Shown here piece by piece: positions 8,851 through 43,549 of a stretch of DNA of 64,000 nt. A program made the translations under genes and the position numbers. The DNA lies in the NCBI RefSeq assembly GCF_011764425.1, contig NZ_BLPF01000002.1:1860997-1924996 (forward strand). The letters are read 5' to 3'. Source of the DNA: Phytohabitans houttuyneae. GTDB taxonomy: Bacteria; Actinomycetota; Actinomycetes; Mycobacteriales; Micromonosporaceae. The first letter of the stretch is position 1. Every line of letters starts with the position of its first letter. The notes below the pieces were generated by a model. That model was not told the DNA's origin, ran no database searches, and saw nothing but the letters and a program-made list of their open reading frames with translations.

Positions 8851-8866
8851 CCAACCATTTGGTTGG
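8851..8866. promoter_or_regulatory. TetR-type operator site 1
   Basis: CCAACCATTTGGTTGG has 7-bp perfect arms and lies in the divergent promoter region of the thiolase (8833) and ligase (8916) genes. It matches the repeated pattern YCRACY-N4-RGTYGR found throughout the cluster. Assignment to the TetR protein encoded at 23784-24467 is inference. Confidence 0.7.
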
Positions 8867-8881
8867 CTACATTGTCTGCAC

Positions 8882-8897
8882 CCAACCGACTGGTTGG
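8882..8897. promoter_or_regulatory. TetR-type operator site 2
   Basis: CCAACCGACTGGTTGG is a second copy 31 bp from site 1, about three helical turns, and ends just before the AGGAGG ribosome-binding site of the ligase gene at 8916. The two copies are placed to control both divergent genes. Confidence 0.7.
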
Positions 8898-8915
8898 CGA
8901 AGGAGGCGGGAGCGG

Positions 8916-10508
8916 ATGGCGGGTTCATCGGGGCGGAGCCGGGTCGGTCCGCTCTCGCAGTGGAAGGCCACCCCGGCGGGCGAGACCGTCGAGGAGCCGG
9001 TGGGGCAGGTGCTGGCCCGCCAGGTCGCGGCCGGCCCGGACCGGCCGGCGCTGTACTGGCCGGAGGCCGGCGCTCTGGCCAGCATGACGTACGCGGAGCT
9101 CGGCGAGGCGGCGCACCGGCTCGGCCGCGCGATGGCCGGGCAGGCCAGGCCCGGCGAGCGGGTCGCGGTCTGGTCCCGCAACTCGGTGCCGTACGTGCTG
9201 CTGGAGTACGCCTCCGCGCTCGCCGGCCTGGTGTTCGTACCCTTCAACACCGCCTGGACCGACGCCGAGGCCGCGCACGCCGTGCGCCTCACCCGCCCGG
9301 CCCTGCTGTTCGCCGGACCGTCGTACGCCGGCGACAGCCTCGCACCGCGCGCCGGCGCGCTGGACGGCGGCACCCCGGTCGTGGACATCGAGGCGCTGGA
9401 GCAATGGGCCGCCACCGCCGCGCCGGGCGAGCTTCCCGAGGTGGCGCCCGACCAACCGTTCCTGATCCAGTTCACCTCGGGCACGACGGGCCGTTCCAAG
9501 GGCGCGGTCATCTCCCACCGCGCCGCCCTCAACGGCGCCCTGCAGCGAAACCGGCACGACGTGATCGGCGACGACGACGTCTGGCTGAACCCGGTGCCCT
9601 ACCACCACATCGGCGGCTCCTGCTTCGTGATCCTCGGCGGCGTGCTCGACGGCGGCGCCTTCGTGGTCATGCAGCGGTGGGACCCGGCCGAGGTGCTGCG
9701 CCTGCTCGGCCTCGGCGTCATCAACCGCATCGGCGGGGTACCCACGATGCTCGTCGACATCCTCGCCAAGCTCGGCGACGCCGCGCGGGACGCCGGCCTG
9801 CGGTCGGTCGCGCTCGGCGGCGCCACGGTCACCCAGCCGCTGGTCGACCTCGTCGGCAAGGCGCTCGGCGTGCCGGTGCTCATCGGGTACGGGCAGTCGG
9901 AGTGCCCGCTGATCACCTCGACGCACATCGCCGACGACCCCGCGACGATCGGCGGCACCCTCGGCCGCCCGCTGCCGGCCGCCGACATCCGCATCGCCGA
10001 CCCCGAGTCCGGCGCGGTGCTGCCGGTCGGCACGCCCGGCGAGATCCTCGTGCGCGCGCCCTACATGATGAGCGGCTACTGGGACATGCCGGAGCAGACG
10101 GCGGCCACGATCACGCCGGACGGGTACCTGCGCACTGGCGACCTCGGCGAGATGGACGGGTCCGGGTTCCTGACCTTCCGCGGCCGCTCGCGCGACGTCA
10201 TCATCCGCGGCGGCGAGAACGTGTACCCGGCCGAGGTCGAGGAGATCCTGCTCGAACACCCCGGCGTGGCCGGCGCGGTGCTCGTCGGTGTCGAGGACGC
10301 CCGGCTCGGCGAGCGGGTGGCCGGCGTGGTGGTGCGCCAGCCGGGCAGCGAGGTGAGCGGCGCGGAGCTGGCCGCCTTCCTCGCCGGCCGGGTCGCCAAG
10401 TACAAGATCCCGGTGGCCTGGCGGTTTGTGGAGTCCTTCCCGATGACCGCGTCCGGCAAGGTGCGCCGCTTCGTGGTGCGCGACGAGACGAACGAGGAGC
10501 TGCGGTGA
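8916..10508 (+). CDS. Acyl-CoA synthetase (AMP-forming), paralogue of the 27711 ligase
   Basis: This 530-residue ANL ligase has the P-loop FTSGTTGRSKGAV, the YGQSE adenylate motif, RTGDLGEMD, the hinge RDVIIRGGENVYPAEVEE and the C-terminal catalytic Lys in PMTASGKVRR. ATG 8916 is chosen because AGGAGG (8901-8906) lies 9 bases before it; longer in-frame starts would run through the operators. It closely resembles the ligase at 27711 (shared PFNTAWTDAE and NPVPYHHIGGSCFVILGG segments), so the two arose by duplication. It is followed with 4-base overlap by an enoyl-CoA hydratase. Substrate unknown; a medium or ring-bearing acid is plausible. Confidence 0.92.
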   Translation: MAGSSGRSRVGPLSQWKATPAGETVEEPVGQVLARQVAAGPDRPALYWPEAGALASMTYAELGEAAHRLGRAMAGQARPGERVAVWSRNSVPYVLLEYASALAGLVFVPFNTAWTDAEAAHAVRLTRPALLFAGPSYAGDSLAPRAGALDGGTPVVDIEALEQWAATAAPGELPEVAPDQPFLIQFTSGTTGRSKGAVISHRAALNGALQRNRHDVIGDDDVWLNPVPYHHIGGSCFVILGGVLDGGAFVVMQRWDPAEVLRLLGLGVINRIGGVPTMLVDILAKLGDAARDAGLRSVALGGATVTQPLVDLVGKALGVPVLIGYGQSECPLITSTHIADDPATIGGTLGRPLPAADIRIADPESGAVLPVGTPGEILVRAPYMMSGYWDMPEQTAATITPDGYLRTGDLGEMDGSGFLTFRGRSRDVIIRGGENVYPAEVEEILLEHPGVAGAVLVGVEDARLGERVAGVVVRQPGSEVSGAELAAFLAGRVAKYKIPVAWRFVESFPMTASGKVRRFVVRDETNEELR

Positions 10509-11461
10509 GCGACCTTCTGGCGGAGCGGCACGGCGGCGTGCTGCTGCTGCGGTTCAACCGCCCCGAGCGGCACAACGCGATCGGCGGCACGCTGCTGCGC
10601 GAGCTGGCCGAGGCGTTCGACGAGGCGGGGCGGGACGACAGCGTCCGGGTCGTGGTGACCACCGGGGTCGGTGACAGCTACTCGGTCGGCGCCGACGCGG
10701 CCGTCCTCGCCCCCAGGGCTGGCGGGATCCGGTCCGAGGAGCGAAGCGACGAGGCCGGATGGCGCCAGCCTCTCGGAGCGCCCAGCGAGCGAAGCGAGCG
10801 CGACCAGCGGAGCCCGGGGGACCGGCCGCCGGCCCGGGAGTTCCTCGCCAGCGAGGAGATCGGCGGCGAGAAGGGCCTGCCACCGTTGTCCCCGGGGCAG
10901 GTCAGCCTCGACGACCTCGGCAACGCCGGCCGCTGGACGCTGCGGATGTGGGAGCTGGACAAGCCGACCATCGCCGCGGTGAACGGCGTCGCCGTCGGCG
11001 GCGGCTTCGGGATAGCGCTGCTGCACGACCTGCTCGTCGCGGGCACGTCCGCGCGGCTCGGCCCCGGCTTCGCGCCGATCGGCATCGCGCCGGAGATGGG
11101 CATCAGCCTCCTGCTGCCGCACGTGGTGGGCGCGCAGCGGGCCGCCGAGCTGCTCTACAGCGGCCGCCTGGTCGGCGCCGCGGAAGCCCGGGACCTCGGC
11201 CTCGTCGTCGAGACGGTCGACGACCACCTGCTGCTGGAACACGCGCTGGAGCGCGCGGCGCGGATCGCCGCCATGCCGCCGCTGGGGACACGCGCGACCA
11301 AACGCCTGCTGCGCAAGGCGACCTACGCCGCGATGGCCGAGCAGCTGCGCGCCGAGTACACCGCCCAGGTCCTGCTCTTCGACCACCCGGACACCCTCGC
11401 GGCGATGGACCGGCTGGTGCGGCGGCTGCGCGCCAAGGCCGAGGCGTCCGGAGCCGGCTGA
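10505..11461 (+). CDS. Enoyl-CoA hydratase/isomerase with an in-frame palindromic-repeat insertion
   Basis: This 318-residue crotonase-family protein has the N-terminal RFNRPERHNAIG segment, the oxyanion-hole stretch AVNGVAVGGGFGIALLHD and the family C-terminal helices. Crotonases usually have about 260 residues; the extra length is an Arg/Ser/Glu-rich loop (about residues 71-105) encoded by a palindromic DNA element (10717-10770) and its flank. The insert follows the conserved YSVGADAAVL region, on the surface side of the acyl-CoA site, and keeps the frame. The protein would hydrate 2-enoyl-CoAs. GTG 10505 overlaps the ligase stop, and its own stop overlaps the next ATG. Whether the loop harms activity is unknown. 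Confidence 0.85.
   Translation: MSDLLAERHGGVLLLRFNRPERHNAIGGTLLRELAEAFDEAGRDDSVRVVVTTGVGDSYSVGADAAVLAPRAGGIRSEERSDEAGWRQPLGAPSERSERDQRSPGDRPPAREFLASEEIGGEKGLPPLSPGQVSLDDLGNAGRWTLRMWELDKPTIAAVNGVAVGGGFGIALLHDLLVAGTSARLGPGFAPIGIAPEMGISLLLPHVVGAQRAAELLYSGRLVGAAEARDLGLVVETVDDHLLLEHALERAARIAAMPPLGTRATKRLLRKATYAAMAEQLRAEYTAQVLLFDHPDTLAAMDRLVRRLRAKAEASGAG
10717..10770. repeat. Imperfect palindromic repeat element inserted inside a coding gene
   Basis: A left arm (10717-10732, starting GGCTGGCG) and a right arm (10755-10770, ending CGCCAGCC) are reverse complements at 14 of 16 positions, with a GAGCGAAGCGACGAG-type centre. Just downstream (10784-10801) comes GCGAGCGAAGCGAGCGCG, itself strongly repetitive. 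The element is translated in frame inside the enoyl-CoA hydratase as a low-complexity RSEERSDE/SERSER segment. It looks like a mobile small palindromic repeat of the kind scattered through some actinomycete genomes (inference). Confidence 0.6.
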
Positions 11462-12273
11462 TGGGCGGCGAGGTCACCATCCGGGTACGGGCGGCCGGGC
11501 TGTCGCACCTGACGCTCAGCCGCGGCCGCGCCGAGCCGCCGCTGGTGCCCGGCGCGGAGGTGGCCGGCACCGTGCTCGCCGCGCCGAGGGAAAGCGGCTT
11601 CGCCGCCGGCGACCGGGTGCTCGCGCTCTGCCGCCGCGGCGGGCTCGCCGAGGTGGCGGTCGCGGACACCGAGGACACGTTCGCGCTGCCGGCGGCGCTC
11701 AGCTTCGAGCGCGGCGCCGCGGTCCTCGTGGACTACCTGACCGCGCACTTCGCCGTCGTCGAGCGCGGCGGGCTGGCGGTCGGCGAGTCGGTGCTCGTGC
11801 GTGGCGCCGAGCGCGGCGCCGGCATCGCCACGGTGCAGGTGGCCCGCGCGTTCGGTGCCGGGCGGGTGGCCGCCGTGGAGGGCGGCGAGGACTTCCGCGC
11901 GGCGGTGCGCGCGGGCGGGCTGATCGACCTGGCCGTGGACCTGGTGGGCGGCGACAGTTTCGTGGACGTGCTGCGCTGCCTGGGCCCCGAGGGGCGGGCG
12001 GTGGCGGTACCGGCCGCCGGCGCCGATCCGGCCGGCTTCCGGGTCAACCGGCTGCTGCTGAACAACATCGACGTCGTCGCCGCGGACTGGGCCGGCTGGG
12101 CGCTGGGCGGGTCCGGGCGCCTGGCGAACGCGTGGGCGGAGCTCGCGCCGCACCTGAACCGCGGCGCGCTGGACCCGGTCGTGGAACGCGTGCACGGCCT
12201 CGAGCGCCTCCCGCACGCCCTCGCCGCCTTCGCGGAGGGGACCGCGCGCGGCAAGCTCGTCGTCCGCCTCTGA
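11461..12273 (+). CDS. Quinone oxidoreductase-like MDR protein, short form
   Basis: This 270-residue protein is a medium-chain dehydrogenase/reductase related to NADPH:quinone oxidoreductase: GroES-like N-terminal half (VPGAEVAGTV, FAAGDRVLAL), then a Rossmann region with VLVRGAERGAGIATVQVARAFGA and VDLVGGDSF. It is about 50 residues shorter than usual, with a trimmed N-terminus (no upstream start fits, as ATG 11461 overlaps the hydratase stop) and a modified nucleotide loop (AERGAG for the usual GASGGVG). Cofactor binding may therefore be altered. It is the last gene of the operon from 8916 and resembles the frameshifted gene at 6620-7587. Confidence 0.78.
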   Translation: MGGEVTIRVRAAGLSHLTLSRGRAEPPLVPGAEVAGTVLAAPRESGFAAGDRVLALCRRGGLAEVAVADTEDTFALPAALSFERGAAVLVDYLTAHFAVVERGGLAVGESVLVRGAERGAGIATVQVARAFGAGRVAAVEGGEDFRAAVRAGGLIDLAVDLVGGDSFVDVLRCLGPEGRAVAVPAAGADPAGFRVNRLLLNNIDVVAADWAGWALGGSGRLANAWAELAPHLNRGALDPVVERVHGLERLPHALAAFAEGTARGKLVVRL

Positions 12274-12279
12274 GAATAA

Positions 12280-12295
12280 CCGACCGCTTGGTTGG
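12280..12295. promoter_or_regulatory. TetR-type operator site 3
   Basis: CCGACCGCTTGGTTGG matches the cluster-wide pattern and starts 7 bp after the stop of the oxidoreductase gene, in the promoter region of the ligase gene at 12357. Confidence 0.6.
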
Positions 12296-12327
12296 TTGTT
12301 GGGCGCTCGGAGGGTGGTCTATCGTTA

Positions 12328-12343
12328 CCCACCATCTGGTTGG
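12328..12343. promoter_or_regulatory. TetR-type operator site 4
   Basis: CCCACCATCTGGTTGG is a weaker copy (left arm CCCACC) that ends 3 bases before the GGAGG ribosome-binding site of the gene at 12357. It lies 48 bp from site 3, so the two sites bracket the likely promoter. Confidence 0.5.
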
Positions 12344-12356
12344 GATGGAGGCTGGC

Positions 12357-13955
12357 GTGTCGATAGACAACCTGACGACGGTCGCGGGACACCTGCGGGC
12401 CCGGCTGGAAAAGGACCCCGAGCGCGACATCGCCGCGTGCGGTGGGCCGTGGCGTTCGGTCGGTACCGTGCACGACCGCGCGGCACGCCTCGCCGCCGGC
12501 CTGTACGAGAGCGGCGTGCGCCCCGGCGACCGGGTCGCGTCGATGATGCCCAACCGGGACGAGGCGGTGGACCTGTTCTTCGCCTGCGCGCTGCTCGGCG
12601 CGATCCAGGTGCCGCTGAACGTCTTCCTCAAAGGCGAGTTCCTGCGCTACCAGCTCGCCGACGCGGAGCCGGCGGTCGTCGTCGCCGACGCTGCCGCCCT
12701 GCCGCTGATGGCCGAGGCGGTCAAGGCGCCCGAGCTGTCCGGTGCCCGGCTCGTCGCGCTCGACCCGCTGGAGGAGTCGGACACCGGCGCGGTGCCGTTC
12801 GCGGACCTCCTCGTCGACCCGGTGCGGACCTGGCCGGACCCCGGACCCGACGACCTCGTCGCCGTGCTCTACACCTCCGGCACCACGGGCATGCCCAAGG
12901 GCTGCATGATCAACAACGGGTACTTCACGCACATGCCCAAAGCGCACATGATGCACGGCTGGTTCACCGCCGGCGACACGTCGATGTGCCCGCTGCCGCT
13001 GTACCACGGCTTCGCGCTCAGCGCCCTCATGGACGGGCTCGTGGCCGGCTGCCGGGTGGCGTTCGACCCGGTGTACAGCGCGTCGATGTTCCTGCGGCGG
13101 GCCCGCGAGATCGGCGCGACCCAGTTCTTCGGCGTCGGGGCGATGGCCGCGGCCCTGCTCGCCACGCCGCCGGCGCCCGACGACACCGAGCACGCCATCG
13201 AGCGGGCGATCTTCATCCCGCTCGCGCCGGCGGTCAAGCGGCAGTTCGAGGAGCGCTTCGGCACGCGGGCGATCTGCGAGGGGTACGGCCAGACCGAGGT
13301 GCTGCCCGCCACCATGGGCGACGGCACGTCGACCGGCCGCCCCGACCGGGCCAGTGCCGGGCGCGCCCTGCCGTGGCTGGACGTGCGCGTGGTGGACGAC
13401 GCCGACCGGGTGCTCCCGCAGGGGGAGACCGGCGAGGTCGTGGTCCGGCCGCTGGAGCCGTACTCGATGTTCGCGGGGTACTGGCGCAAGGACGCGGCCA
13501 CCCTCGACGCCTGGAAGAACCTGTGGCACCACACCGGAGACCTCGGCTTCTTCGACGGCGACGGCTCGCTCTACTTCGTCGACCGCAAGAAGGACGCGCT
13601 GCGCCGCCGCGGCGAGAACGTCTCCTCGGTCGAGCTGGAACTGGCCATCCTCAAGCACCCCGCGATCGCCGAGGTCGCCATCCACGCCGTGCCGGCCGGC
13701 GTGCGGGAGGACGAGATCAAGGCGTGCCTCGTCCTCGAACGCGGCGCGCGGCTCGAACCCGCCGAGCTGTTCGCCTACCTCCGGGAGAACCTGCCCTACT
13801 TCGCCGTCCCCCGGTACGTCGAGTTCCTCGACGAGCTGCCGAAGAACGCCGTCGCCCGGGTGCTCAAGCACAAGCTCCGCGACGGGTGGGACACCCCGGG
13901 CACCGTCGACTTCCAGGCACTCGGCCTCGTCATCGACCGCAGCGAGCGGCGGTGA
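12357..13955 (+). CDS. CaiC-like acyl-CoA synthetase
   Basis: This 532-residue AMP-forming ligase has P-loop LYTSGTTGMPKGCM, YGQTE, HHTGDLGFFD, the hinge FVDRKKDALRRRGENVSS and a C-terminal Lys in NAVARVLKHKLR. The RRRGENVSS and PLNVFLKGEFLRYQL segments resemble the carnitine/crotonobetaine-CoA ligase (CaiC) branch. GTG 12357 is chosen since GGAGG (12347-12351) precedes it by 5 bases. The closest relative in the window is the ligase at 15112; an alpha-methylacyl-CoA racemase-like gene lies between them, overlapping this stop by 4 bases. It activates an unknown acid, probably one with a methyl branch at C2 given the racemase. Confidence 0.9.
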   Translation: MSIDNLTTVAGHLRARLEKDPERDIAACGGPWRSVGTVHDRAARLAAGLYESGVRPGDRVASMMPNRDEAVDLFFACALLGAIQVPLNVFLKGEFLRYQLADAEPAVVVADAAALPLMAEAVKAPELSGARLVALDPLEESDTGAVPFADLLVDPVRTWPDPGPDDLVAVLYTSGTTGMPKGCMINNGYFTHMPKAHMMHGWFTAGDTSMCPLPLYHGFALSALMDGLVAGCRVAFDPVYSASMFLRRAREIGATQFFGVGAMAAALLATPPAPDDTEHAIERAIFIPLAPAVKRQFEERFGTRAICEGYGQTEVLPATMGDGTSTGRPDRASAGRALPWLDVRVVDDADRVLPQGETGEVVVRPLEPYSMFAGYWRKDAATLDAWKNLWHHTGDLGFFDGDGSLYFVDRKKDALRRRGENVSSVELELAILKHPAIAEVAIHAVPAGVREDEIKACLVLERGARLEPAELFAYLRENLPYFAVPRYVEFLDELPKNAVARVLKHKLRDGWDTPGTVDFQALGLVIDRSERR

Positions 13956-15100
13956 GCGCGCGCGGCGGCCCGCTGGCCGGGCTGAAAGTCGTCGAGCTGC
14001 AGGGCCTGGGACCGGGCCCGTTCTGCGCGATGCTGCTCAGCGACTTCGGCGCCGACGTCGTGCGGGTCGAGCGCACGCAGGCCGTCGCCGCCGCGGACGG
14101 GCCGCCACCACCGGACGTGCTCGCCCGGGGCCGCCGCTCGATCGGCGTCAACCTGAAGTCCCCCGACGGGGTCGAGGCGCTGCTGCGGCTCGTCGACCGG
14201 GCGGACGTGCTCATCGAGGGCTTCCGGCCGGGCGTCACCGAGCGGCTCGGCGCCGGGCCGGACACCTGCCTGGCCCGCAACCCCCGGCTGGTCTACGGCC
14301 GGGTCACCGGGTGGGGTCGCACCGGCCCGTACGCGCCGTACGCCGGGCACGACATCAACTACCTCGCCCTCTCCGGCGCGCTGTGGTCGATCGGCCGCGG
14401 CGGGGAGGCGCCGGTGGCGCCGCTGACGTACGTGGGTGACTTCGGCGGCGGCGGGATGCTGCTCACGATCGGGATCTGCGCCGCGCTCGCCGAGCGGGCC
14501 TCCTCCGGCCGCGGCCAGGTCGTGGACGCCGCGATGGTCGACGGCGCGGCGCTGCTCAACAGCTTCCTGTACGGCATGCGCGCGATGGGCATGTGGGGCC
14601 AGGAGCGCGGCCGCAACCTGCTGGACACCGGCGCCCCGTTCTACGACACGTACGAGACCGCCGACGGCGGGTGGATCGCGATCGGCGCGCTCGAGCCGCA
14701 GTTCTACCGCAACCTCGTCGGCGCGCTCGGCGTGCCGGACCTGCCGGCCACGCAGCCGGACCCCGCGGGCTGGCCCGCGCTGCGCGCGCGGTTCGCCGAG
14801 GTGTTCCGGACCAGGACGCGGGACGAGTGGTGTGCGGTGCTGGAGGCGGCCGAGGCGTGTTTCGCGCCGGTGCTCTCGCCGTGGGAGGCGCCCGAGCACC
14901 CGCACAACGCGGCCCGCGGGACGTTCGTGGCGCACGAAGGGCTCGTGCAGCCCGCGCCGGCGCCGCGCTTCAGCCGCACCCCCGCGCGGATCGCCGGGCC
15001 GGTGGCCCGGCCCGGCCAGCACACCGACGAGGTCCTCACCGAGTGGGGCTTCGCGCCCGACGAGATCGAGAAGCTGCGCGCCGGCGGTGGTGTCGCGTGA
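13952..15100 (+). CDS. Alpha-methylacyl-CoA racemase-like protein (CoA-transferase family III)
   Basis: This 382-residue CaiB/BaiF-fold protein starts with LAGLKVVELQGLGPGPFCAMLLSDFGADV-type sequence (quoted in part: GLGPGPFCAMLLSDFGADVV). It has the His of AGHDINYLALSG and the Asp of YVGDFGGGG, the pair used for proton transfer in alpha-methylacyl-CoA racemase. It lacks the class III transferase Asp context, so racemase is preferred over CoA-transferase. It would interconvert 2R- and 2S-methyl acyl-CoAs so that the branched side chain can enter beta-oxidation, as in sterol and isoprenoid breakdown. It is co-transcribed between two CaiC-like ligases. GTG start with 4-base overlap. Confidence 0.87.
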   Translation: MSARGGPLAGLKVVELQGLGPGPFCAMLLSDFGADVVRVERTQAVAAADGPPPPDVLARGRRSIGVNLKSPDGVEALLRLVDRADVLIEGFRPGVTERLGAGPDTCLARNPRLVYGRVTGWGRTGPYAPYAGHDINYLALSGALWSIGRGGEAPVAPLTYVGDFGGGGMLLTIGICAALAERASSGRGQVVDAAMVDGAALLNSFLYGMRAMGMWGQERGRNLLDTGAPFYDTYETADGGWIAIGALEPQFYRNLVGALGVPDLPATQPDPAGWPALRARFAEVFRTRTRDEWCAVLEAAEACFAPVLSPWEAPEHPHNAARGTFVAHEGLVQPAPAPRFSRTPARIAGPVARPGQHTDEVLTEWGFAPDEIEKLRAGGGVA

Positions 15101-15111
15101 AAGGAACCAGG

Positions 15112-16695
15112 ATGACCACTGTGGACGGTGTATTCCGGGAGCGGCTGGCGGCGGAGCCGGACACGCCGTTCGTCACCTGCGGCGGGCAGTGGCTCACCTT
15201 CGCGGAGCTGGACGAGCGCACCGACCGGCTGGCCACCGGCCTGTCCCGGCTCGGCGTGCGGCGCGGCGACCACATCGCCTCGATCATGCCCAACCGCATC
15301 GAGACCGTCGAGCTGCTGCTCGCCGTCGCGAAGCTGGGCGCCGTGCAGGTGCCGCTCAACTACTTCCTCAAGGGCGACTTCCTCGGGTACCAGCTCAGCG
15401 ACTGCGGCGCGAAGTATCTTATCGCCGACGGGCCCGGCTACGACGCGGCGGCCGGCCTGCTCGGCGGCACCTCGATCGCCGAGACGGTGCAGGTCGACGC
15501 CGGCGCGGGCGGCACGGTCGCCTACCCGGAGCTGTTCGCGGAGCGGTCCACGTTCGCGCCGGCCTCCCGGCCCAGCGACCTGCTGACCATCATGTACACC
15601 TCGGGCACCACGGCGGTCGCGAAGGGCTGCATGCTCAGCACCGGCTACTTCGTGGCCGTCGGCCGGGCGTACGGGATGCGCAACTGGGTGGTCCCCGGCG
15701 ACCGCGTGTACACCGGCTTCCCGATGTTCCACACCAGCGGGCAGATGGTCGCGTTCATGAGCGCGCTGGTCAACGGCGCGTCGATCGGCATCGCGCCGGA
15801 GTTCCACGCGTCGTCGTTCATGCGCGAGGCCGCCGACCTCGGCGCGACGATGCTGGTCGGCGTCGGCGTGATGGCCAACATGATCCTGGAGCAGCCGCCG
15901 CGCCCGGACGACGGCGCGCACCCCTTCCGGCTCGCCTCCTGGGTGCCGCTGCCCGAGGAGCGCCAGCGCGAGTTCGAGGAACGGTTCCACACCCCGGTCA
16001 TGTCCGAGGGGTACGGGCAGACCGAGTGCGTGCCGGTCACCAACAGCGACCCGTACGGCACCCGCGAGCGCTCGTCGTCGGGGCAGGTGTCGCCGCTGCT
16101 GGAGGCGCGGATCGTCGACGAGGACGACAACGAGGTGCCGGCCGGCGAGCCCGGCGAGATCGTCGTGCGGCCGAAGGTCGCCAACGCCATGTACAGCGGC
16201 TACTGGAACAAGCCCGACAGCTCTGTCGAGGCGTGGCGGAACCTGTGGCACCACACCGGTGACTTCGGGCGGATGGACGAGGACGGCATCATCACGTTCG
16301 TCGACCGCAAGAAGGACGTGCTGCGCCGGCGCGGCGAGAACGTCTCCTCGCTGGCCCTCGAAGCCGTCATCCGGCAGCACCCGGCCATCGCGGACGCGGC
16401 CGTGTGCGCGCTGCCCGCGACGATCGGTGACGACGACATCAAGGCGAGCGTGGTCCTCGAAGCGGGCGCGACCCTGACCGCCCACGAGTTCTTCGACTTC
16501 ATCCGCGACCGGGTGCCGTACTTCGCGGTCCCGCGCTACGTCGACGTGCGCGAGGCCTTGCCCGTCAACGCGCTGGGCCGGGTGATGAAGCACGTGCTGC
16601 GCGACGAGGGCGTCAAGGCCGGCACCTGGGACCTGGACGGCATGGGCCTCGTGGTACCGCGCGCGCAGCGGCGCGGCGTGTCCACGGCGAAGTGA
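15112..16695 (+). CDS. CaiC-like acyl-CoA synthetase, paralogue of the 12357 ligase
   Basis: This 527-residue ligase has P-loop MYTSGTTAVAKGCM (TAVAK instead of TGMPK, an unusual P-loop), YGQTECVP, HHTGDFGRMD, the hinge FVDRKKDVLRRRGENVSS and a C-terminal Lys in NALGRVMKHVLR. ATG 15112 follows AAAGGA by 6 bases; GTG 15097 overlapping the racemase stop is a possible longer start. Strong similarity to the 12357 ligase in the hinge and in VPLNYFLKGDFLGYQL indicates tandem duplication with an intervening racemase gene. The changed P-loop suggests different kinetics or substrate. It is the last gene before operator site 5. Confidence 0.9.
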   Translation: MTTVDGVFRERLAAEPDTPFVTCGGQWLTFAELDERTDRLATGLSRLGVRRGDHIASIMPNRIETVELLLAVAKLGAVQVPLNYFLKGDFLGYQLSDCGAKYLIADGPGYDAAAGLLGGTSIAETVQVDAGAGGTVAYPELFAERSTFAPASRPSDLLTIMYTSGTTAVAKGCMLSTGYFVAVGRAYGMRNWVVPGDRVYTGFPMFHTSGQMVAFMSALVNGASIGIAPEFHASSFMREAADLGATMLVGVGVMANMILEQPPRPDDGAHPFRLASWVPLPEERQREFEERFHTPVMSEGYGQTECVPVTNSDPYGTRERSSSGQVSPLLEARIVDEDDNEVPAGEPGEIVVRPKVANAMYSGYWNKPDSSVEAWRNLWHHTGDFGRMDEDGIITFVDRKKDVLRRRGENVSSLALEAVIRQHPAIADAAVCALPATIGDDDIKASVVLEAGATLTAHEFFDFIRDRVPYFAVPRYVDVREALPVNALGRVMKHVLRDEGVKAGTWDLDGMGLVVPRAQRRGVSTAK

Positions 16696-16704
16696 GACCC
16701 GTTA

Positions 16705-16720
16705 CCGACCAACCGGTTGA
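16705..16720. promoter_or_regulatory. TetR-type operator site 5
   Basis: CCGACCAACCGGTTGA lies 9 bp after the stop of the 15112 ligase and 52 bp before the acyl-CoA dehydrogenase start at 16773. It matches the pattern with one arm ending in A, and contains the perfect core CAACCGGTTG. Confidence 0.6.
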
Positions 16721-16772
16721 CTACGATCGGTGGCCGGCATAGCGTCGGAGTCGTGGATGGAGGTACCCGACC

Positions 16773-17942
16773 GTGAAGACCGTGCTCGGTGACGAGCAGC
16801 TGACGTTCCTGGCCGAGCTGCGCACCTACCTCGACGGCCTGGATCCCGCGCTGGTCGAGGCGACCCGCGCGGAGAACATCGAGGACCCCATGCAGCCGCG
16901 CGCGCACGGCCGCCGCTTCCTCAAGCGGCTCGGCGCCGACGGGTGGCTGGGTGTGGCGTGGCCGCGGGAGTACGGCGGGCAGGGCCGCACGGCCATCGAG
17001 AGCTGGCTGATGGCCGAGGAGCTGTACAACCGCCGCCTGCCCAACGGCCTGCTGACGCTCAACGCGATCGGGCCGACGCTGATGCTCGTCGGCACCGCGG
17101 AGCAGAAAGCCGAGTACCTGCCCCGTATCCGGGCCGGCGAGCTGGAGTTCGCGATCGGGTACAGCGAGCCGGACGCGGGCAGCGACCTGGCCTCGCTGCG
17201 CACCCGGGCGGTCCGCGACGGCGATGGGTACCTCGTCAACGGCCAGAAGATCTGGACCACCGGCGCCTCGGTGGCCACGCACCTCTGGCTGGCGGTCCGC
17301 ACCGGCCGGCCGGAGCAGCGGCACCGCGGCGTCAGCCTGTTCATCACGCCGATGGACGCGCCCGGCATCACGATCACGCCGATCATCACGCAGGGCGGCG
17401 AGCGGACCAACGCGGTCTTCTTCGACAACCTGCGGATACCGGCGAGCCAGCGGATCGGCGCGGAGAACGAGGGCTGGTCCGGCATCGTCACCGCGCTCAA
17501 CTTCGAGCGGATGTTCTACCACAACGAGCCGCGCTGGGAGCTGCGGCAGCTGACCGACTGGGCCGCCGGCGCGGGGCTGCTGGACGGCGACACGGCCGAG
17601 GCGCACGAGCTGCAGGCGGTGGTCGGCGAGCACGCGGTGGACGTGGAGATCTGCCGCCTGTTCGCGCTGCGCGGCGCGCGGATGCTCGCCGAGGGGCACG
17701 TGCCGCACGCGGAGGCGTCGGTCAACAAGATCTGGTGGGGCGAGCTGCGCCAGCGCATCTGCGACACCGGCCTCGACCTCGTCGGCGAGGAGGGCACGAT
17801 CGCCACCGGCTCGGCGTACGCGCCCGCGCACGGCCACCTGGAGCACGGGCTGCGCTCGTCGCCGGTGTGGCGGTTCGGCGGCGGTACGAACGAGATCCAG
17901 CTCGACATCATCGCCACGCGCGGTCTGGGGATGCCACGATGA
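16773..17942 (+). CDS. Acyl-CoA dehydrogenase, full-length partner of pair 2
   Basis: This 389-residue flavoprotein has WPREYGGQGRT, the motif YSEPDAGSDLASL (about residue 130), GQKIWTTGA, QGGERTNAVFFDN and a C-terminal FGGGTNEIQLDIIATRGLG. It would desaturate an acyl-CoA with FAD and hand electrons to ETF. GTG 16773 has GGAGG 10 bases upstream. The stop overlaps the ATG of the next, shorter dehydrogenase, so the two are coupled and probably make a heteromer. Sequence style resembles the FadE26/28-type subunits of sterol side-chain oxidation, but the assignment is only to type. Confidence 0.9.
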   Translation: MKTVLGDEQLTFLAELRTYLDGLDPALVEATRAENIEDPMQPRAHGRRFLKRLGADGWLGVAWPREYGGQGRTAIESWLMAEELYNRRLPNGLLTLNAIGPTLMLVGTAEQKAEYLPRIRAGELEFAIGYSEPDAGSDLASLRTRAVRDGDGYLVNGQKIWTTGASVATHLWLAVRTGRPEQRHRGVSLFITPMDAPGITITPIITQGGERTNAVFFDNLRIPASQRIGAENEGWSGIVTALNFERMFYHNEPRWELRQLTDWAAGAGLLDGDTAEAHELQAVVGEHAVDVEICRLFALRGARMLAEGHVPHAEASVNKIWWGELRQRICDTGLDLVGEEGTIATGSAYAPAHGHLEHGLRSSPVWRFGGGTNEIQLDIIATRGLGMPR

Positions 17943-19024
17943 CCGACACCGACCTGACCGACGAGGAGGCGCTGCTGGCCAAGACGGCCCGCGCCTACTT
18001 CGCCGACTTCGTCGACAACACCTACCTCAACGCGCAGCAGGCGTCCCCGCTCGGCTACGAGCCGCGGCGCTGGGCGCAGATGTGCGAGCTGGGCTGGACC
18101 GCCGTCAACCTGCCCGAACGGGTCGGCGGCGCCGGCGGCACCCTCGCCGAGGCCGGGGTGGTCGCGCGCGAGTACGGCCGGGCGGCCTTCGCCTCGCCGC
18201 TGCTGCAGACGCTGCGCGCCGGCACCGCCCTGGCCACGCTCGGCGGCGGCGCGTTCGACGGGACGCTCGCCCGGATCGCCGGCGGCGGCAGCGCGGCCCT
18301 CGTCGCGCCGCCGGACCGCACGGTGCGCGCGGAGCAGGCCGGCGGCGGCTACCGGCTGACCGGCTCCGCGGTGGTCGAGTGGGTCGAGCAGTGCGACGAC
18401 GTGGTCCTGCTGCTGCCGGCCGCGGGGCACTGGGTGTGCGCCACGCTGCCCGCCGCCGACCTGCGCGACCGGATCACCGCCGTGCCGAGCGTCGACAACG
18501 AGCGGATCGGTCGGCTGGGACTTGACGGCCTGCGCCTGGTGGCGAGCCCCATCGCCCCGGAGGCGGCGCGGTACGCGCTGGCCCGGGCCAACCTGCTGCG
18601 GGCAAGCGCGATGGTCGGCGGCTGCGAGGCGGTGGTCGAGCAGAGCGCGCGGTACGCCAAGGAGCGGGTCCAGTTCGGGCAGGCCATCGGCGCCTTCCAG
18701 GCGGTGCGGCACCACCTCGCGCGCATGGTCATCGCGGCGGACGCGGCGCGGCTGGCGTGCAACGAGGCGCTGACCCGGGCGGTGCCGGACGCGGACGAGA
18801 GCGCCATCGCCGCGGTCGCGGTGTTCGCCGCCGGCCGCTCGTACGTCCAGATCGTGCTCACCGCCGCGCAGGTGCACGGCGGCGTCGGCACGACGGTCGA
18901 GCACATCCTGCACCACCACTACCTGCGGGCCAAGGCGATGCAGCTGCGCGGCGGGCGGCGGGCCAGCCGGCTCCGCGAAATCCACCAGGCGCTCGTGGTA
19001 CGCCGGGAGGGACGCCTGTGGTGA
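17939..19024 (+). CDS. Acyl-CoA dehydrogenase family protein, short partner of pair 2
   Basis: This 361-residue homologue retains LPERVGGAGGTLAEAGVVAR near the N-terminus and the C-terminal helical domain (YAKERVQFGQAIGAFQAVRH, then AQVHGGVGTTVEHILHHHY), but the middle domain lacks the EPxAGSD motif. ATG 17939 overlaps the stop of the full-length partner. As in known alpha2beta2 acyl-CoA dehydrogenases of steroid pathways, the two chains likely complete each other's FAD and substrate sites (inference). The short-chain dehydrogenase gene follows 16 bp later. Confidence 0.86.
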   Translation: MTDTDLTDEEALLAKTARAYFADFVDNTYLNAQQASPLGYEPRRWAQMCELGWTAVNLPERVGGAGGTLAEAGVVAREYGRAAFASPLLQTLRAGTALATLGGGAFDGTLARIAGGGSAALVAPPDRTVRAEQAGGGYRLTGSAVVEWVEQCDDVVLLLPAAGHWVCATLPAADLRDRITAVPSVDNERIGRLGLDGLRLVASPIAPEAARYALARANLLRASAMVGGCEAVVEQSARYAKERVQFGQAIGAFQAVRHHLARMVIAADAARLACNEALTRAVPDADESAIAAVAVFAAGRSYVQIVLTAAQVHGGVGTTVEHILHHHYLRAKAMQLRGGRRASRLREIHQALVVRREGRLW

Positions 19025-19040
19025 GCGCCGGGGTGCGGAC

Positions 19041-20644: not shown

Positions 20645-20693
20645 GGACCGTCCAGACGCGGCCTCACCCTCCGCGGTCACCCAGCTCACCAGA

Positions 20694-32042: not shown

Positions 32043-32048
32043 CGGCCG

Positions 32049-39763: not shown

Positions 39764-40231
39764 ATGCGCACAGCCGTCGTCCGGGTGGTCATCGATCGGG
39801 ACGGGGTCCTGTCCCCGGCGGACTACGAGGCGGGGCTGCGGCGGCTGCGCGAGCGGGGCACGGAGGTCGTGGCCTCGCCGGCCGGCCGCCTGCCCGACCG
39901 AAACCGCGAGGTCGAGCTGATCGTGCCGGGCCTGGACCCGGCCGACGTCGACAAGCACGCGACCGCCTGCGCCGAGGCGTTCGGCGTTCCGGCGGCGGCC
40001 GGCGTCGTCACGTACATCAGCCGGGGGACCGACGACGACGCCCACGGGGTGCTCGCCGCCTTCAAGGTCGACGGCACGGTGGAGCGGACGTTCGACGGCG
40101 ACGGCGAGGTCGTCACGGTCACCCTCGATCCGGCCGGCATGCGGCGGGTGCCGGAGAGCCGGCTGCACACGGCCCTCGAGGCGGCGCTCAACTGCGAGGT
40201 GCGGATCCGGGCCACCCCGTCAGCGCGGTGA
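39764..40231 (+). CDS. Small conserved-type protein of unknown function
   Basis: This 155-residue product is not recognised. It begins MRTAVVRVVIDRDGVLSPAD, and is acidic and alpha/beta-like, with no signal peptide or membrane segment. Possible repeated-strand halves (residues 1-60 and 75-130) suggest a small two-domain fold. ATG 39764 is chosen over an upstream alternative at 39755. It is divergent from mntH and overlaps the 3' end of the double-TetR gene by 12 bases on the opposite strand. No role can be given. Confidence 0.6.
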   Translation: MRTAVVRVVIDRDGVLSPADYEAGLRRLRERGTEVVASPAGRLPDRNREVELIVPGLDPADVDKHATACAEAFGVPAAAGVVTYISRGTDDDAHGVLAAFKVDGTVERTFDGDGEVVTVTLDPAGMRRVPESRLHTALEAALNCEVRIRATPSAR

Positions 40232-41491
40232 CAGCACACCGCGCAGCAGGCTCTCCCGCAGGAAGGCGTGCGCCCGCGCCTCGCTGGTGCGCGCGTGCTC
40301 CTGGTACGGCACCCACAGCAGCGACCGGAAGTGCAGGGCGGTCTCCACCGGGTCGGCGACCTTGCGCAGCTGGCCCGCGCCGGTGCCGCGCCGCATGATC
40401 CTGCGCAGCTCGGCGAAGCGCTGCTCGGTCGCGATGAAGTAGTCGTGCAGCGGGCCGGTCGTCGTCTCCCGCCGGCTCCACCCGTACGAGACGATCCGCC
40501 CTTCCTCCGGGTAGCGGCGGTTCATGTACACGAACACCCGCGAGATGGCGTCCAGCGACTGCGGCACCGGCGAACCCGCGGTCACGATCGCCCGGAACGC
40601 CTTGTCGAACCGGTCGCCGTAGCTGCCGAGGATCTCCCCGAGCAGCGCCTCCTTGGACTCGATCCGGCGGTACAGCGTGCCCATCCGCACGCCGGCCGCG
40701 TTTGCCACGTCGCGGATCGTCGTGGCCTCGTAGCCGTGCCGGGCGAACTCCGCCCGGGCCGCCGCGACGATCGCCTCCCGGTCGCCGGGCGCGGCGGCGC
40801 GGCCGCTCCTGCGCCAGCCGGCCATGGTGTCGGTGGCCGCCTTCAGCGCCGCCGAGCCGTCCAGCTCGCGGTCGTCCGGGCAGTCGACGACGAGGCCGTG
40901 CAGCAGCAGGTCGCACAGGTGCGCCGCGAGCGTCCGCGGGCTCGTCACGCTCGGGTAGAACGAGGCGGCGTAGAAGGACAGGTGCTGCAGCGCGAAGCGC
41001 AGGACGCCGAGGTCGACGGCGGGAGCGGCGCCGGACGTGGCCAGCGCGCCCACCGCCTGGCGCCAGGCCCGCTCCAGCGCCGGTGACTGCAGCCGCATGG
41101 CGTCCCGGAACCGGTCCGTCGACACCGTCGGCGGGGCCTCGTGCGCGCGGAGCCGGACGGCGGCGGCGTGCTGGAAGCTGAGCGCGACGACATCGGCCGT
41201 CAGCCGCTGGATCGTGGCCTCCGGGTCGGCCTCGGGCCGGCGGACCGCCCCCGCGCTGAGGTCGTCGAGCGCGTGGCCGAGCGACGTCAACAGGTCCACC
41301 GCGATGTCTTCCTTGGACCGGAAGTGGTGGTACAGGCTTCCCGGGAGCACGCCCACCGCGTCGGCGATGTCGTTCATCGTCGTGGCCGCGTAGCCCGACG
41401 CCTCGAACAGCCGCGCCGCCGTCTGCCGCACCGCGTCGGCCCGGCTGCCGGTGACCGCGACGTCCGGCACCCGCGAGAGGGAAGCTGTCAT
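40220..41491 (-). CDS. Double TetR-family regulator (two TetR units in one chain)
   Basis: This 423-residue protein contains two complete TetR units. The first helix-turn-helix is at about residues 18-66 (AARLFEASGYAATTMNDIAD, PGSLYHHFRSKEDIAV); the second is at about 230-280 (AARAEFARHGYEATTIRDVA, MGTLYRRIESKEALLG). Each is followed by its own helical ligand domain. A TetR monomer is ~200 residues, so this is a fusion that could act as a pseudo-dimer. ATG 41491 is used; GTG 41497 is possible. The gap to the PucR gene holds the inverted repeat at 41549-41566, a candidate site for this protein (inference). Confidence 0.88.
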   Translation of the reverse strand: MTASLSRVPDVAVTGSRADAVRQTAARLFEASGYAATTMNDIADAVGVLPGSLYHHFRSKEDIAVDLLTSLGHALDDLSAGAVRRPEADPEATIQRLTADVVALSFQHAAAVRLRAHEAPPTVSTDRFRDAMRLQSPALERAWRQAVGALATSGAAPAVDLGVLRFALQHLSFYAASFYPSVTSPRTLAAHLCDLLLHGLVVDCPDDRELDGSAALKAATDTMAGWRRSGRAAAPGDREAIVAAARAEFARHGYEATTIRDVANAAGVRMGTLYRRIESKEALLGEILGSYGDRFDKAFRAIVTAGSPVPQSLDAISRVFVYMNRRYPEEGRIVSYGWSRRETTTGPLHDYFIATEQRFAELRRIMRRGTGAGQLRKVADPVETALHFRSLLWVPYQEHARTSEARAHAFLRESLLRGVLSPR

Positions 41492-41674: not shown

Positions 41675-43390
41675 GTGGGCGAACGAGCGAACCTCACCGC
41701 TGAGCCGTCCCGGCCGCGCCTTCGAGCAGTCCGGGACGTTCCGGCGGACACCGCCGAGCTCGGCGGCCTCAGCACGTTCACGATCGAAGACTTTCTCGCC
41801 ATGCCCGTCACCCAGCAGGGCGCGCCCGTCGTGGTCGCCGGCAAGCAGCACCTGGACAGGCGGGTCCGCTGGCTGCACGTCATCGAGCTGGTGGACACCC
41901 AGGGACTGCTTCAGGGCGGGGAGCTGATACTTGCTACGGGCATCGCGTTTCCGCAGGCGCCCGAGGAGATCGCGCAGTACGTCGACGCGCTGGCCGACCA
42001 GGGCATCGCCGGCCTCGCGATCGAGCTGGGCCGCCGCTTCGCCACCGTGCCGCCGGCCATGGTCCGGGCCTGCAACCGCCGGCACGTCCCGCTCATCGCC
42101 TTCCACCGCGAGGTCCCGTTCGTCAAGATGACCGAGGCGGCCCACTCGATCATCCTGATGGGCCAGCGCCGCCTGCTGCAGGTCACGGCGGCCGCGCACG
42201 AGCGGTTCACCGAGCTCACCTCGGCCGAGGCCCCGATGGAGGACCTGGTCACCGCCGCGGCCGAGCTCGCCGGCGGCCAGGTCGTCTTCGCCAACCTCAT
42301 GCACCAGGTCCTCGCCCTGCACGAGCCCGATGGCGAGACCGAGCAGCTGCTCAACCGCTGGAACCGCAAGGCGTTCACGCTGACGAAGGCGTTCGGCACC
42401 CAGGTCGACAAGGCCGACCACACCGTCGTCACGCCGGTCGAGGTCCGCGGCCGCCAGCGCGGGCGGCTCGTGCTGTTTTCCACCGGCCCGCCCGACCGGG
42501 CACAGGTCACCGTCATCGAGCGGGCGGCCGTGGCGCTCGGGATGCTCCTGCTGCTGCAGGACGACGACGTCGTCGTCGCGAACGCGCACCGGACCGTGCT
42601 GGAAAGCATCATCTCCGGCCGGTCCGGCGGCGTGGAGGCGATGCACGCGCGCGCCGCCGCCCTGGGCCGCCCCACCCGCGGTCGCTACTACCTGCCGGTC
42701 GTCGTGGTCTCGGCCGGCCGCGACCTGCGCTGGGTGGTCAACCGGGCACTGGACGAGACGCGCCTGGACGGCCTGGCCGCGCAGGTCGGTCCGGACCGCT
42801 GGGGAGCGCTGCTGCTGTTGAAGACCGAGCAGTTCGAGCAGGCGGTGTCGGCGTTCGCCGCCTGCGTCCTCGAACTGTGCCGGGGTGTGGGCATCGACCG
42901 CCCCGTCGTCGCGCGCGGCGGCCTGGTCTCGGCGCTGGCCGACGTGCGCCACTCGGTCGCCGAGGCGGTCGACGTGGCGCTGGCCTCGCGCGTGGCCGGC
43001 AGCCCGCGCAACCGCAAGGACGTGTACGCCATCGAGGACGTGAAGCTGCGCGGACTGCTGTACACGCTGCGCAACGACTCCCGGCTGCAGGCCTTCGTCG
43101 AGCGGATGCTCGGGCCGCTGCTGCATCGGGACACATTGGACGGTGGCGGTGACTGGGTGCGCACCCTCGGTGTCTACCTGCGCTTCCAGGGCAACAAGTC
43201 GCTGACCGCGCAGGAGCTGGGCGTCTCGCGGCCGACGCTGTACGAGCGCCTCGGCCGCATCCAGCGCCTGCTGCGGGTCGACCTGGACGATCCAGAGTGG
43301 AGCACCTCGCTGTACGCCGCCATCATGGTCGTGGAGGCGACCGCGGCGGACTCACCGGCGTTGCCGCAGAAGCGGCGCGAGAGTCTTTGA
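41675..43390 (+). CDS. PucR-family transcriptional regulator
   Basis: This 571-residue protein has an N-terminal PucR domain (FTIEDFLAMPVTQQGAPVVV, RRVRWLHVIELVDTQGLLQG), a central GGDEF-like/CdaR region, and a C-terminal PucR-type helix-turn-helix (LGVYLRFQGNKSLTAQELGV, SRPTLYERLGRIQRLL). GTG 41675 follows CGGAGG by 8 bases. Such proteins activate purine and other catabolic genes in response to effectors. It precedes the ABC importer operon in the same direction, so it is a candidate activator of uptake and of the downstream hydrolases (inference). Confidence 0.9.
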   Translation: MGERANLTAEPSRPRLRAVRDVPADTAELGGLSTFTIEDFLAMPVTQQGAPVVVAGKQHLDRRVRWLHVIELVDTQGLLQGGELILATGIAFPQAPEEIAQYVDALADQGIAGLAIELGRRFATVPPAMVRACNRRHVPLIAFHREVPFVKMTEAAHSIILMGQRRLLQVTAAAHERFTELTSAEAPMEDLVTAAAELAGGQVVFANLMHQVLALHEPDGETEQLLNRWNRKAFTLTKAFGTQVDKADHTVVTPVEVRGRQRGRLVLFSTGPPDRAQVTVIERAAVALGMLLLLQDDDVVVANAHRTVLESIISGRSGGVEAMHARAAALGRPTRGRYYLPVVVVSAGRDLRWVVNRALDETRLDGLAAQVGPDRWGALLLLKTEQFEQAVSAFAACVLELCRGVGIDRPVVARGGLVSALADVRHSVAEAVDVALASRVAGSPRNRKDVYAIEDVKLRGLLYTLRNDSRLQAFVERMLGPLLHRDTLDGGGDWVRTLGVYLRFQGNKSLTAQELGVSRPTLYERLGRIQRLLRVDLDDPEWSTSLYAAIMVVEATAADSPALPQKRRESL

Positions 43391-43506
43391 CAAGTCGTCA
43401 GGAAGCCGTCGAGCCGCTTTGACAGAGTGCGACTGGCTACCACGACCGGTCTTACCGATGCTGTTGGACAGGCGCCTGTGTGGCGGCCGTCACGAAGCAT
43501 CTACGC

Positions 43507-43525
43507 GGGGTCGGTGCGAGACCCC
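43507..43525 (+). terminator. Short GC hairpin before the importer operon
   Basis: GGGGTC (43507-43512) pairs with GACCCC (43520-43525) around a 7-base loop, 9 bp before operator site 11. It is placed to end pucR transcription, but it has no U-run and could equally be incidental. Confidence 0.3.
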
Positions 43526-43533
43526 GGAGAATA

Positions 43534-43549
43534 CCGACCAAATGGTCGG
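43534..43549. promoter_or_regulatory. TetR-type operator site 11
   Basis: CCGACCAAATGGTCGG, flanked A...T to give an 18-bp palindrome around a central AAAT, lies 110 bp upstream of the solute-binding protein start. It is the same motif as sites 1-10, 16 kb from the nearest copy, linking the importer operon to the acyl-CoA regulon. Confidence 0.72.

Follow-up and report, generated by a model that had tools for sequence, protein, structure and literature searches.

The described systems closest to the one analysed here are built on TetR-family repressors. KstR of Mycobacterium is an autoregulated TetR repressor with many operators in front of lipid and steroid catabolic genes, and the enzyme families involved are similar to those found below (PMC1995591); the KstR2 regulon includes the IpdAB coenzyme A (CoA)-transferase pair (PMC5380842), and KstR3 of M. 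neoaurum controls a small operon (PMC10398937). Our analysis concerns a 64,000-nucleotide stretch of the Phytohabitans houttuyneae genome (11.34 Mb), positions 1860997-1924996 of contig C2, which we call the window and in which the original prediction saw eleven copies of a 16-base-pair operator, defining a single catabolic regulon centred on one TetR gene. We confirmed the repeated operators and found that the TetR regulon is real, well conserved and, within the literature searched, undescribed: among the papers listed by our searches, in a literature that leaves out most subscription journals, none describes this regulon in its title or the beginning of its abstract, and those for the operator sequence led to PaaR and PfmR. 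It is most likely an undescribed TetR repressor regulon whose substrate would be a polycyclic or branched isoprenoid acid. The best explanation, which we consider probable, is that paired sister TetR repressors would share one operator set and control a steroid- or terpene-like catabolic regulon.

The resemblance to KstR does not extend to the operator. The window contains no match to the KstR boxes TnnAACnnGTTnnA (PMC1995591) and none to the KstR2 boxes AnCAAGnnCTTGnT, the latter taken in the form given with the original prediction. No protein of the genome passes the KstR model (NCBIfam NF033703, cut-off 280 bits), and the two TetR proteins described below stay far under it at 25-30 bits (TetR1 25.7). 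Since the boxes are absent from the window and the model finds no protein in the genome, we rejected a KstR or KstR2 regulon, in line with the earlier claim that this one is distinct from both.

The pattern YCRACY-N4-RGTYGR has 13 exact matches in the window; shuffled sequences have a mean of 0.39 and a maximum of three. Ten of the eleven sites originally listed match it exactly; the remaining one, at 12328, is a one-mismatch copy with the left arm CCCACC. Three further exact matches, absent from that list, lie at 455, 1873 and 32916: the first is outside the 30 best matrix places, and the other two, with 8.1 and 8.5 bits, fall within predicted genes. Aligned, the eleven sites give a palindrome of about 22 bases with AT-rich ends, wwACCAACC-N4-GGTTGGTww. 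With a 24-position matrix their scores are 21.2-35.4 bits, or 18.1-32.8 bits if the matrix is built without the site being scored; the best of all other places in the window reaches 17.6 bits (2919, inside a gene) and the one after it 12.1, while 200 first-order Markov sequences of the window's length contain on average 0.005 places at or above 18 bits, with a top score of 18.6. All eleven sites are intergenic, as had been stated, and none overlaps predicted coding sequence, which makes up 93.8% of the window. Gene starts here and below are our own predictions, with three spans fixed by hand (the TetR start at 24467, the KshA-like gene at 20821-21830 and the substrate-binding-protein start at 43659).

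Operators 1 (8851-8866, 26.3 bits) and 2 (8882-8897, 21.2 bits, the weakest of the eleven) share the region between a thiolase gene (7610-8833, minus strand) and an acyl-CoA ligase gene (8916-10508, plus strand), the latter part of an apparent operon (8916-12273) with genes of an enoyl-CoA hydratase-family protein and a zinc-type dehydrogenase; the promoter orthologous to that of operator 1 carries sites in Dactylosporangium sucinum and Dactylosporangium sp. AC04546. Operators 3 (12280-12295, 29.7 bits) and 4 (12328-12343, 26.4 bits, the one-mismatch copy) stand before a plus-strand group (12345-16695) of an acyl-CoA ligase (12345-13955), an alpha-methylacyl-CoA racemase (13952-15100) and another acyl-CoA ligase (from 15112). 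Operator 4 lies one base from the predicted start codon at 12345 and was recovered, at C2:1873321, by a model trained on other genomes. Operator 5 (16705-16720, 27.7 bits) is in the promoter of a plus-strand group (16773-20644) encoding paired acyl-CoA dehydrogenase subunits, a short-chain dehydrogenase/reductase (SDR) and a protein without Pfam match (19826-20644). Operator 6 (21856-21871, 35.1 bits) is upstream of the gene of a KshA-like Rieske oxygenase (20821-21830, minus strand), and operator 7 (23723-23738, 35.4 bits) is upstream of the thiolase gene 22557-23687, which stands with the gene of a thioesterase-like protein on the minus strand (21913-23687). Operator 8 (24481-24496, 28.6 bits) is 13 bases from the start of the TetR gene, here TetR1 (P0001; 23784-24467, minus strand). 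Operator 9 (24541-24556, 30.9 bits), which was the best match in this genome of a model held out from it, precedes the first gene (24589-25608) of a plus-strand group (24589-27664) with Pfam domains of paired acyl-CoA dehydrogenases and an SDR. Operator 10 (27673-27688, 30.5 bits) precedes a further plus-strand group (27711-33718) with an acyl-CoA ligase (27711-29327), a MaoC-type hydratase, an enoyl-CoA hydratase, a metallo-beta-lactamase-fold protein and a pair related to IpdAB and glutaconate CoA-transferase. Operator 11 (43534-43549, 33.9 bits) stands before an Opp-type ATP-binding cassette (ABC) importer operon. The gene classes named by the original prediction (ligase, thiolase, racemase, dehydrogenase, Rieske oxygenase, importer) are thus correct, the importer at 43659 being an Opp/SBP_bac_5-type ABC system.

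The operators continue to the left of the window, where we give positions on the window's scale with a minus sign. In the flanks examined (C2:1801001-1964900 in all) there are five further strong sites on that side, at -17420, -13518, -7597, -2871 and -2799 (23.1-32.4 bits); four are intergenic and the one at -7597 overlaps the 3' end of a predicted major facilitator superfamily (MFS) gene. To the right of the window, up to C2:1964900, nothing scores above 14.7 bits. In total 16 sites are spread over C2:1843576-1904545, about 61 kb. The leftmost (C2:1843576) is 17.4 kb outside the window and the rightmost 43.5 kb inside it, so the window covers the locus only in part. The midpoints of 15 of the 16 are at most 60 bases from the nearest predicted start, that of 43534 being 117 bases away. 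Genes of the left flank encode enoyl-CoA hydratases, acyl-CoA dehydrogenases, SDRs, an F420-type luciferase-like oxidoreductase, an APH-fold protein, DUF7064/7065 proteins, an MFS transporter, a periplasmic binding protein and branched-chain-type ABC permease and ATPase proteins. Two weaker sites further out, at -24491 and -24441 (18.7 and 17.6 bits), were left out of the regulon because they lie beside a different regulator with a helix-turn-helix (HTH) and a TetR domain. This protein (-25386 to -24523, minus strand; L035:610-1473) has an N-terminal Cro/C1-type HTH followed by TetR_N and TetR_C_24, and the two weaker palindromes beside it, which are GTTGTCAACC/GGTCGTTGAC-like, may be its own operator.

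Searched over the whole genome, the loose pattern alone is unspecific (300 places, against 116 for a reversed control); the specificity is carried by the AT-rich flanks and the A/T positions within the arms; a tighter flank pattern, WAM...KTW, was too strict and recovered only two sites. The strict form CCRACC-N4-GGTTGG has 25 distinct places in the genome, eight of them in the locus. For 23 of these places the gene context was examined: the eight of the locus all lie between genes, and of the other 15, 14 fall within predicted genes. The held-out model, which is sequence-only and was built from 58 sites of other genomes, gave 30 matches at E<=10 in this genome, corresponding to 16 distinct places among the matches listed, a list that is not exhaustive, since full scoring covered 150 of the 4653 first-look candidates. 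Fourteen of these places are in the 61-kb locus and all rank above the two outside it (C2:879362 and C3:1057364), both of which are inside genes; two sites of the locus, operator 8 (24481) and C2:1858197, are not among the matches listed. The genome-wide matrix scan, which had been proposed as a way to refute the idea, thus left it standing, with the best matches in the locus, and this concentration supports one operator for one catabolic regulon. On the shuffle, matrix, Markov, genome-wide and held-out-model results together we rejected chance or a coding artefact as the source of the repeats.

The operator is conserved together with a clade of TetR proteins across actinomycete families. A scan of named genomes with six TetRs gave 61 loci, of which 15 (L058-L072) are clear relatives with 49-85% identity: two each from two Dactylosporangium genomes, three from Actinomadura, three from Nocardia, one each from Actinophytocola, Mumia and Nakamurella, and two from metagenome-assembled genomes. 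The 46 loci with distant TetRs (L073-L118) were used as controls only. At least one site of at least 18 bits is present in 14 of the 15 clade loci versus none of the 46 controls, the best control score rounding to 18.0 yet falling under the cut of 18. The operator model finds 20-36 matches (best E 0.008-0.093) in six genomes with a clade TetR, from whose sites it was partly trained, and 1-6 weak matches (best E 0.56-3.6) in eight genomes without one; in the TetR-bearing genomes the matches listed lie mostly in one or two places per genome, with a few elsewhere.

Conservation is also seen promoter by promoter. We compared six relatives (D. sucinum, D. sp. AC04546, Actinomadura livida, N. aurantia, Nocardia sp. 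alder85J and N. lactea), counting those with a site at most 260 bases upstream among those that have the gene at 50% identity or more, a divergent promoter counting for both its genes. Over all six, 48 of the 61 orthologues of site-bearing genes also have such a site. For the genes of the left flank the counts are 1/2 (-17367), 2/3 (-14316), 2/4 (-13471), 3/5 (-8666), 2/3 (-3969) and 4/4 (-2767); in the window they are 4/4 for the thiolase 7610, 2/2 for the ligase 8916, 2/4 for the ligase 12345, 6/6 for the acyl-CoA dehydrogenase 16773 behind operator 5, 6/6 for the KshA-like gene, 3/5 for the thiolase 22557, 3/3 for TetR1, 3/4 for 24589, 5/5 for the ligase 27711 behind operator 10 and 0/1 for the importer 43707. 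The KshA-like gene scored 0 in the general count because the query was its C-terminal half only; with the full-length D. sucinum protein as query, the orthologue starts 32-49 bases from a site in all six relatives. Promoter alignments from seven genomes for the KshA-like gene and for the acyl-CoA dehydrogenase pair 16773 show the palindrome as a conserved island. Gene order differs widely among the genomes and the sites recur at orthologous promoters, which means that they follow the genes and not the map. The operator-bearing genes are split over two contigs in N. aurantia (L142-L145) and in Nocardia sp. alder85J (L151-L154).

Several observations weigh against this picture; those that concern TetR2, the promoters and the importer are given with these subjects. 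Three strict-pattern places outside the locus score 19.0, 19.0 and 20.9 bits, all within genes and close to the weakest window site (8882), so the matrix alone is imperfectly selective. The held-out model gives modest E-values (0.03-1.1) for the 14 single sites of the locus, so that the case rests on their clustering, and the 58 sites it was built from had been picked with the window's matrix, as the sites in relatives were found with it. The two seed peptides of the search for relatives included GLNKGTLY, part of the recognition helix, whose presence among the fetched TetRs is therefore partly by construction. Finally, the one clade locus without a site (L071), a 6.3-kb contig ending inside the TetR gene, counts against the association of site and TetR, because about 6 kb upstream are present and the best score there is 6.9 bits; as a single unexplained case among 15, it leaves our assessment materially unchanged.

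TetR1 is flanked by sites 23723, 24481 and 24541, as the original prediction had it. The PDB matches of the TetR profile include, in second place, 3vpr, which we take to be PfmR, as well as KstR2 structures at E about 1e-10. The notion of a single regulator centred on this gene is not supported as it stands, however, for the locus has a pair of paralogous TetR genes whose recognition-helix sequences are identical. The second one, TetR2 (C2:1842970-1843545), lies 18 kb left of the window and is 61% identical to TetR1 over 193 residues; other matches to TetR1 in this genome show 25-47% identity over parts. Both proteins have TetR_N and TetR_C_24 above the curated Pfam cut-offs. The six clade TetRs of this genome, D. 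sucinum and D. sp. AC04546 share GLNKGTLYHYYP, which from general knowledge of TetRs we take to be the recognition helix. In the two Dactylosporangium genomes the TetR pair co-occurs with most of the locus, an acyl-CoA dehydrogenase pair (2901/3989), for example, not being among the matches above 45% there. At E<=1e-30 a clade TetR is present in three of 200 genomes of a family sample, our own included, each with both copies, and in one of 396 genomes of a phylum sample, again our own.

It is possible, if rather doubtful, that only one of the two TetRs controls the operators and that the second copy has degenerated or become tuned differently, serving targets of its own. Paralogues can diverge, and TetR1 and TetR2 agree at 48 of 60 positions over residues 1-60 versus 71 of 131 thereafter; moreover, in this genome no site precedes the TetR2 gene itself, and the nearest one follows its stop codon. 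Set against this are the identity of the recognition-helix sequence in both proteins, the presence of both copies in all three clade genomes of the family sample, and the fact that genomes from which a single TetR was fetched have the same operators whichever copy it is nearer to, as in A. livida with a TetR1-like relative and in Nocardia and Nakamurella with TetR2-like ones. The TetR tree is poorly resolved, with four of 16 inner branches well supported, so that calling such TetRs TetR1-like or TetR2-like relies on pairwise matches. We keep shared control by both TetRs as the preferred reading.

The enzymes of the locus appear to resemble those of the KstR and KstR2 regulons without being them, and include a KshA-like oxygenase, an IpdAB-like pair, paired acyl-CoA dehydrogenases and a racemase. 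Within the window the locus has five acyl-CoA ligases (5017, 8916, 12345, 15112 and 27711) and several paired acyl-CoA dehydrogenases, one of which (16773/17939) has as its best structures Tcur3483/Tcur3481 and 4x28, presumably FadE26/FadE27. For the racemase (13952-15100) the matches are MCR/AMACR structures (mycobacterial MCR) at E about 1e-119. The thiolase 22557 matches generic thiolases best, with FadA5 further down its list. The D. sucinum orthologue of the KshA-like protein has KshA structures as its best matches (E 1e-27), and this genome has no second KshA relative at E<=1e-10. In the present assembly the KshA-like gene is split by a frameshift near 21.43 kb into a Rieske part (open reading frame 21207-21830) and a KshA_C part (20821-21447); in D. 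sucinum and D. sp. AC04546 it is one uninterrupted frame. In the CoA-transferase pair, the counterpart of the pair controlled by KstR2, the alpha subunit matches best 6co6, which we assume to be IpdAB, and the beta subunit matches best a glutaconate CoA-transferase. The Pfam-less protein of 272 residues at 19826-20644 (plus strand) also has no NCBIfam match; it adjoins the acyl-CoA dehydrogenase pair and is kept beside the same pair, at 55-56% identity, in two Dactylosporangium genomes.

None of 35 locus proteins passes a steroid-specific NCBIfam model among the best 25 families for each, and no search was aimed at KstD or HsaA-HsaD. Scores below the cut-off include those for CasG (278 of 750 bits), CasI (198 of 900), the steroid 3-ketoacyl-CoA thiolase (360 of 515), FadD3 (298 of 657) and IpdE2 (118 of 450), the last two setting the locus apart from KstR2. 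As none of these steroid models is passed, no protein of the genome passes the KstR model and no second KshA relative reaches E<=1e-10, we consider that the substrate is probably steroid- or terpenoid-like and that the pathway would not be the standard cholesterol pathway.

A rather unlikely alternative is that the substrate is not a polycyclic compound and that rubber-derived or other acyclic isoprenoid oligomers are degraded instead. The very strong match of the racemase to alpha-methylacyl-CoA racemases would suit it, as would three points from PMC8538451: the cluster-bearing Dactylosporangium sp. AC04546 is a reported rubber degrader, an lcp gene of this strain is on contig 1, the same contig as the cluster (the contig alone was compared), and mutants of the racemase are cited as no longer able to grow on polyisoprene. 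The sole match to PF09995, the latex-clearing family, in the window's genome is, however, one protein on another contig, where no listed match of the operator model lies, and the KshA-like oxygenase and IpdAB-like pair suggest ring hydroxylation and ring opening. We prefer a polycyclic or branched isoprenoid carboxylic acid, which the pathway would activate, shorten, hydroxylate and ring-open.

How would the regulators act? We propose that the palindrome is the operator of a small, apparently unnamed TetR-family clade, and that TetR1 and TetR2, having the same recognition-helix sequence, probably both bind it as dimers. In the absence of inducer they would repress about a dozen catabolic and uptake operons by covering the promoter, and TetR1 would also repress itself, presumably through operator 8. 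KstR and KstR2 respond to acyl-CoA ligands; from this and from the nature of the pathway we infer that an acyl-CoA intermediate probably releases the TetRs from the operators. In the 16773 promoter a -35-like hexamer TTGACT, invariant in seven genomes, begins in the right arm of operator 5, and read by eye it is followed after 17-18 bases by TANNNT in six of the seven (TGGCCT in Nocardia sp. alder85J); in the promoter of the thiolase 22557, TTGACG-N18-TAGCGT ends three bases before operator 7. The operator thus varies in its position relative to promoter-like sequence, overlapping the -35 or following just after the -10, which suits a promoter-covering repressor. These two promoters were the only ones found by a -35/-10-like pattern search before 16 genes, and a generic sigma-70 scan found none in 8400-28300, so the promoter readings are weak on their own.

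Some TetR-family proteins activate, and site 43534 is 117 bases upstream of the importer start, which would allow the regulators to activate instead of repressing, or the sites to have mixed roles. We hold this to be unlikely, given that 15 of the 16 sites are no more than 60 bases from the nearest start and, where a promoter can be read, overlap its -35-like or follow its -10-like element at no fixed distance. Repression by promoter covering remains our preferred reading.

That the operator belongs to another regulator of the region, with the TetR clade as a passenger, is very improbable: the genes of the GntR/FCD regulator (2012-2764), the PucR regulator (41801-43390) and a double-TetR protein (40220-41470) are all in or near the locus, and GntR counterparts 71-73% identical occur in the A. 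livida and Actinophytocola loci, but in a same-genus genome (G057) PucR and the double TetR keep their order although there is no clade TetR at E<=1e-30, and no site above 9.0 bits is present there; these two proteins are unmatched in six regions from relatives, and the GntR match is only 42% identical in N. aurantia and absent among the matches listed for the Nakamurella and Nocardia sp. alder85J regions. The double-TetR protein, encoded on the minus strand, has 416 residues with two TetR_N stretches, a layout known for Mce3R.

The original prediction also placed uptake under the regulon. This is supported for the branched-chain-type ABC genes at the left edge, which belong to the locus, while operator 11, before the Opp-type importer, is not kept in the two relatives where it can be checked: where it would align, D. 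sp. AC04546 has a degenerate version that is one base shorter, and G057, with the module and no clade TetR, has no importer site. Membership of this operon is thus the weakest part of the regulon, although site 43534 itself is also listed by the held-out model. The genes at 43659-54462 (plus strand) encode the importer, an alpha/beta hydrolase, two amidohydrolase-fold proteins, a Rieske ferredoxin, a NuoF-like protein and a 4Fe-4S ferredoxin, and their shared direction suggests a single transcript. In Nakamurella a site stands directly before the orthologous hydrolase-to-ferredoxin block (49241 to 54462). The simplest reading is that the importer module is a separate unit that would be tied into the regulon in some strains.

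Its last five genes, in a row at 50317-54462 (plus strand), encode two PF04909 proteins (50317-51360 and 51380-52528), a small Rieske ferredoxin (52529-52924, 131 aa), the NuoF-like protein and the 4Fe-4S ferredoxin. The second PF04909 protein matches the structures 8SM7 (E 8e-59), AibH2 and PtmU3, which are of the type of amidohydrolase-related dinuclear oxygenases (PMC10811679, PMC7782822), and the layout expected of such enzymes, a PF04909 protein beside a small Rieske ferredoxin, is present. As in AibH1H2GF, two PF04909 proteins are followed by a small Rieske ferredoxin (PMC7782822, PMC10811679); unlike there, the place of AibF is taken by the NuoF-like protein and the 4Fe-4S ferredoxin. 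The block is therefore a candidate AibH1H2-type dinuclear oxygenase with an unusual electron-transfer chain. In G057 the orthologue of 51380-52528 (contig C1; L161, 8795-9933) is matched in two parts that lie in different frames, as if frameshifted.

More tentatively, and with less confidence than in the regulon itself, we suggest that the locus may encode an undescribed KstR-free pathway for a polycyclic terpenoid or unusual steroid acid, in which two duplicated TetRs with the same DNA specificity and different ligand domains would read two intermediates through one operator set, and into which an amidohydrolase-fold dinuclear oxygenase module with its own electron-transfer proteins might have been taken both here and, independently, in Nakamurella. 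Twin repressors on one operator set, if true, would be a natural test of how ligand sensing is divided between duplicated TetRs, and the block at 50317-54462 adds a candidate dinuclear amidohydrolase-fold oxygenase in a degradative setting. With this analysis a large catabolic locus, found again in Dactylosporangium, Actinomadura, Nocardia, Actinophytocola, Mumia and Nakamurella, gains a defined operator and a clade of regulators. The enzymes match generic acyl-CoA families only, and the operator lets the gene set be listed for each species. It also opens a route to the substrate: it will be interesting to ask which compound induces the regulon.

Among TetR systems outside the KstR group, BkaR has a motif, GTTA-N-T-N4-A-N-TAAC (PMC3920632), that differs from the operator described here. 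PaaR of Burkholderia cenocepacia (ACCGACCGGTCGGT, PMC2770484) is closer, being a TetR-type negative regulator of CoA-thioester catabolic operons with ACCGACC/GGTCGGT half sites; its half sites abut, whereas ours are spaced by four bases, and the pathway is another one. PfmR (TTHB023) of Thermus thermophilus (TACCGACCGNTNGGTN, PMC7022988) shares a 16-bp palindrome with related half sites and is a TetR repressor encoded near acyl-CoA dehydrogenase, ligase and MaoC-type genes, but the centre of its palindrome differs, and the parts of PMC7022988 drawn on here give fewer target genes and no steroid-like enzymes. Beside these systems, the present regulon stands as a well-supported new example of a familiar form of bacterial control.

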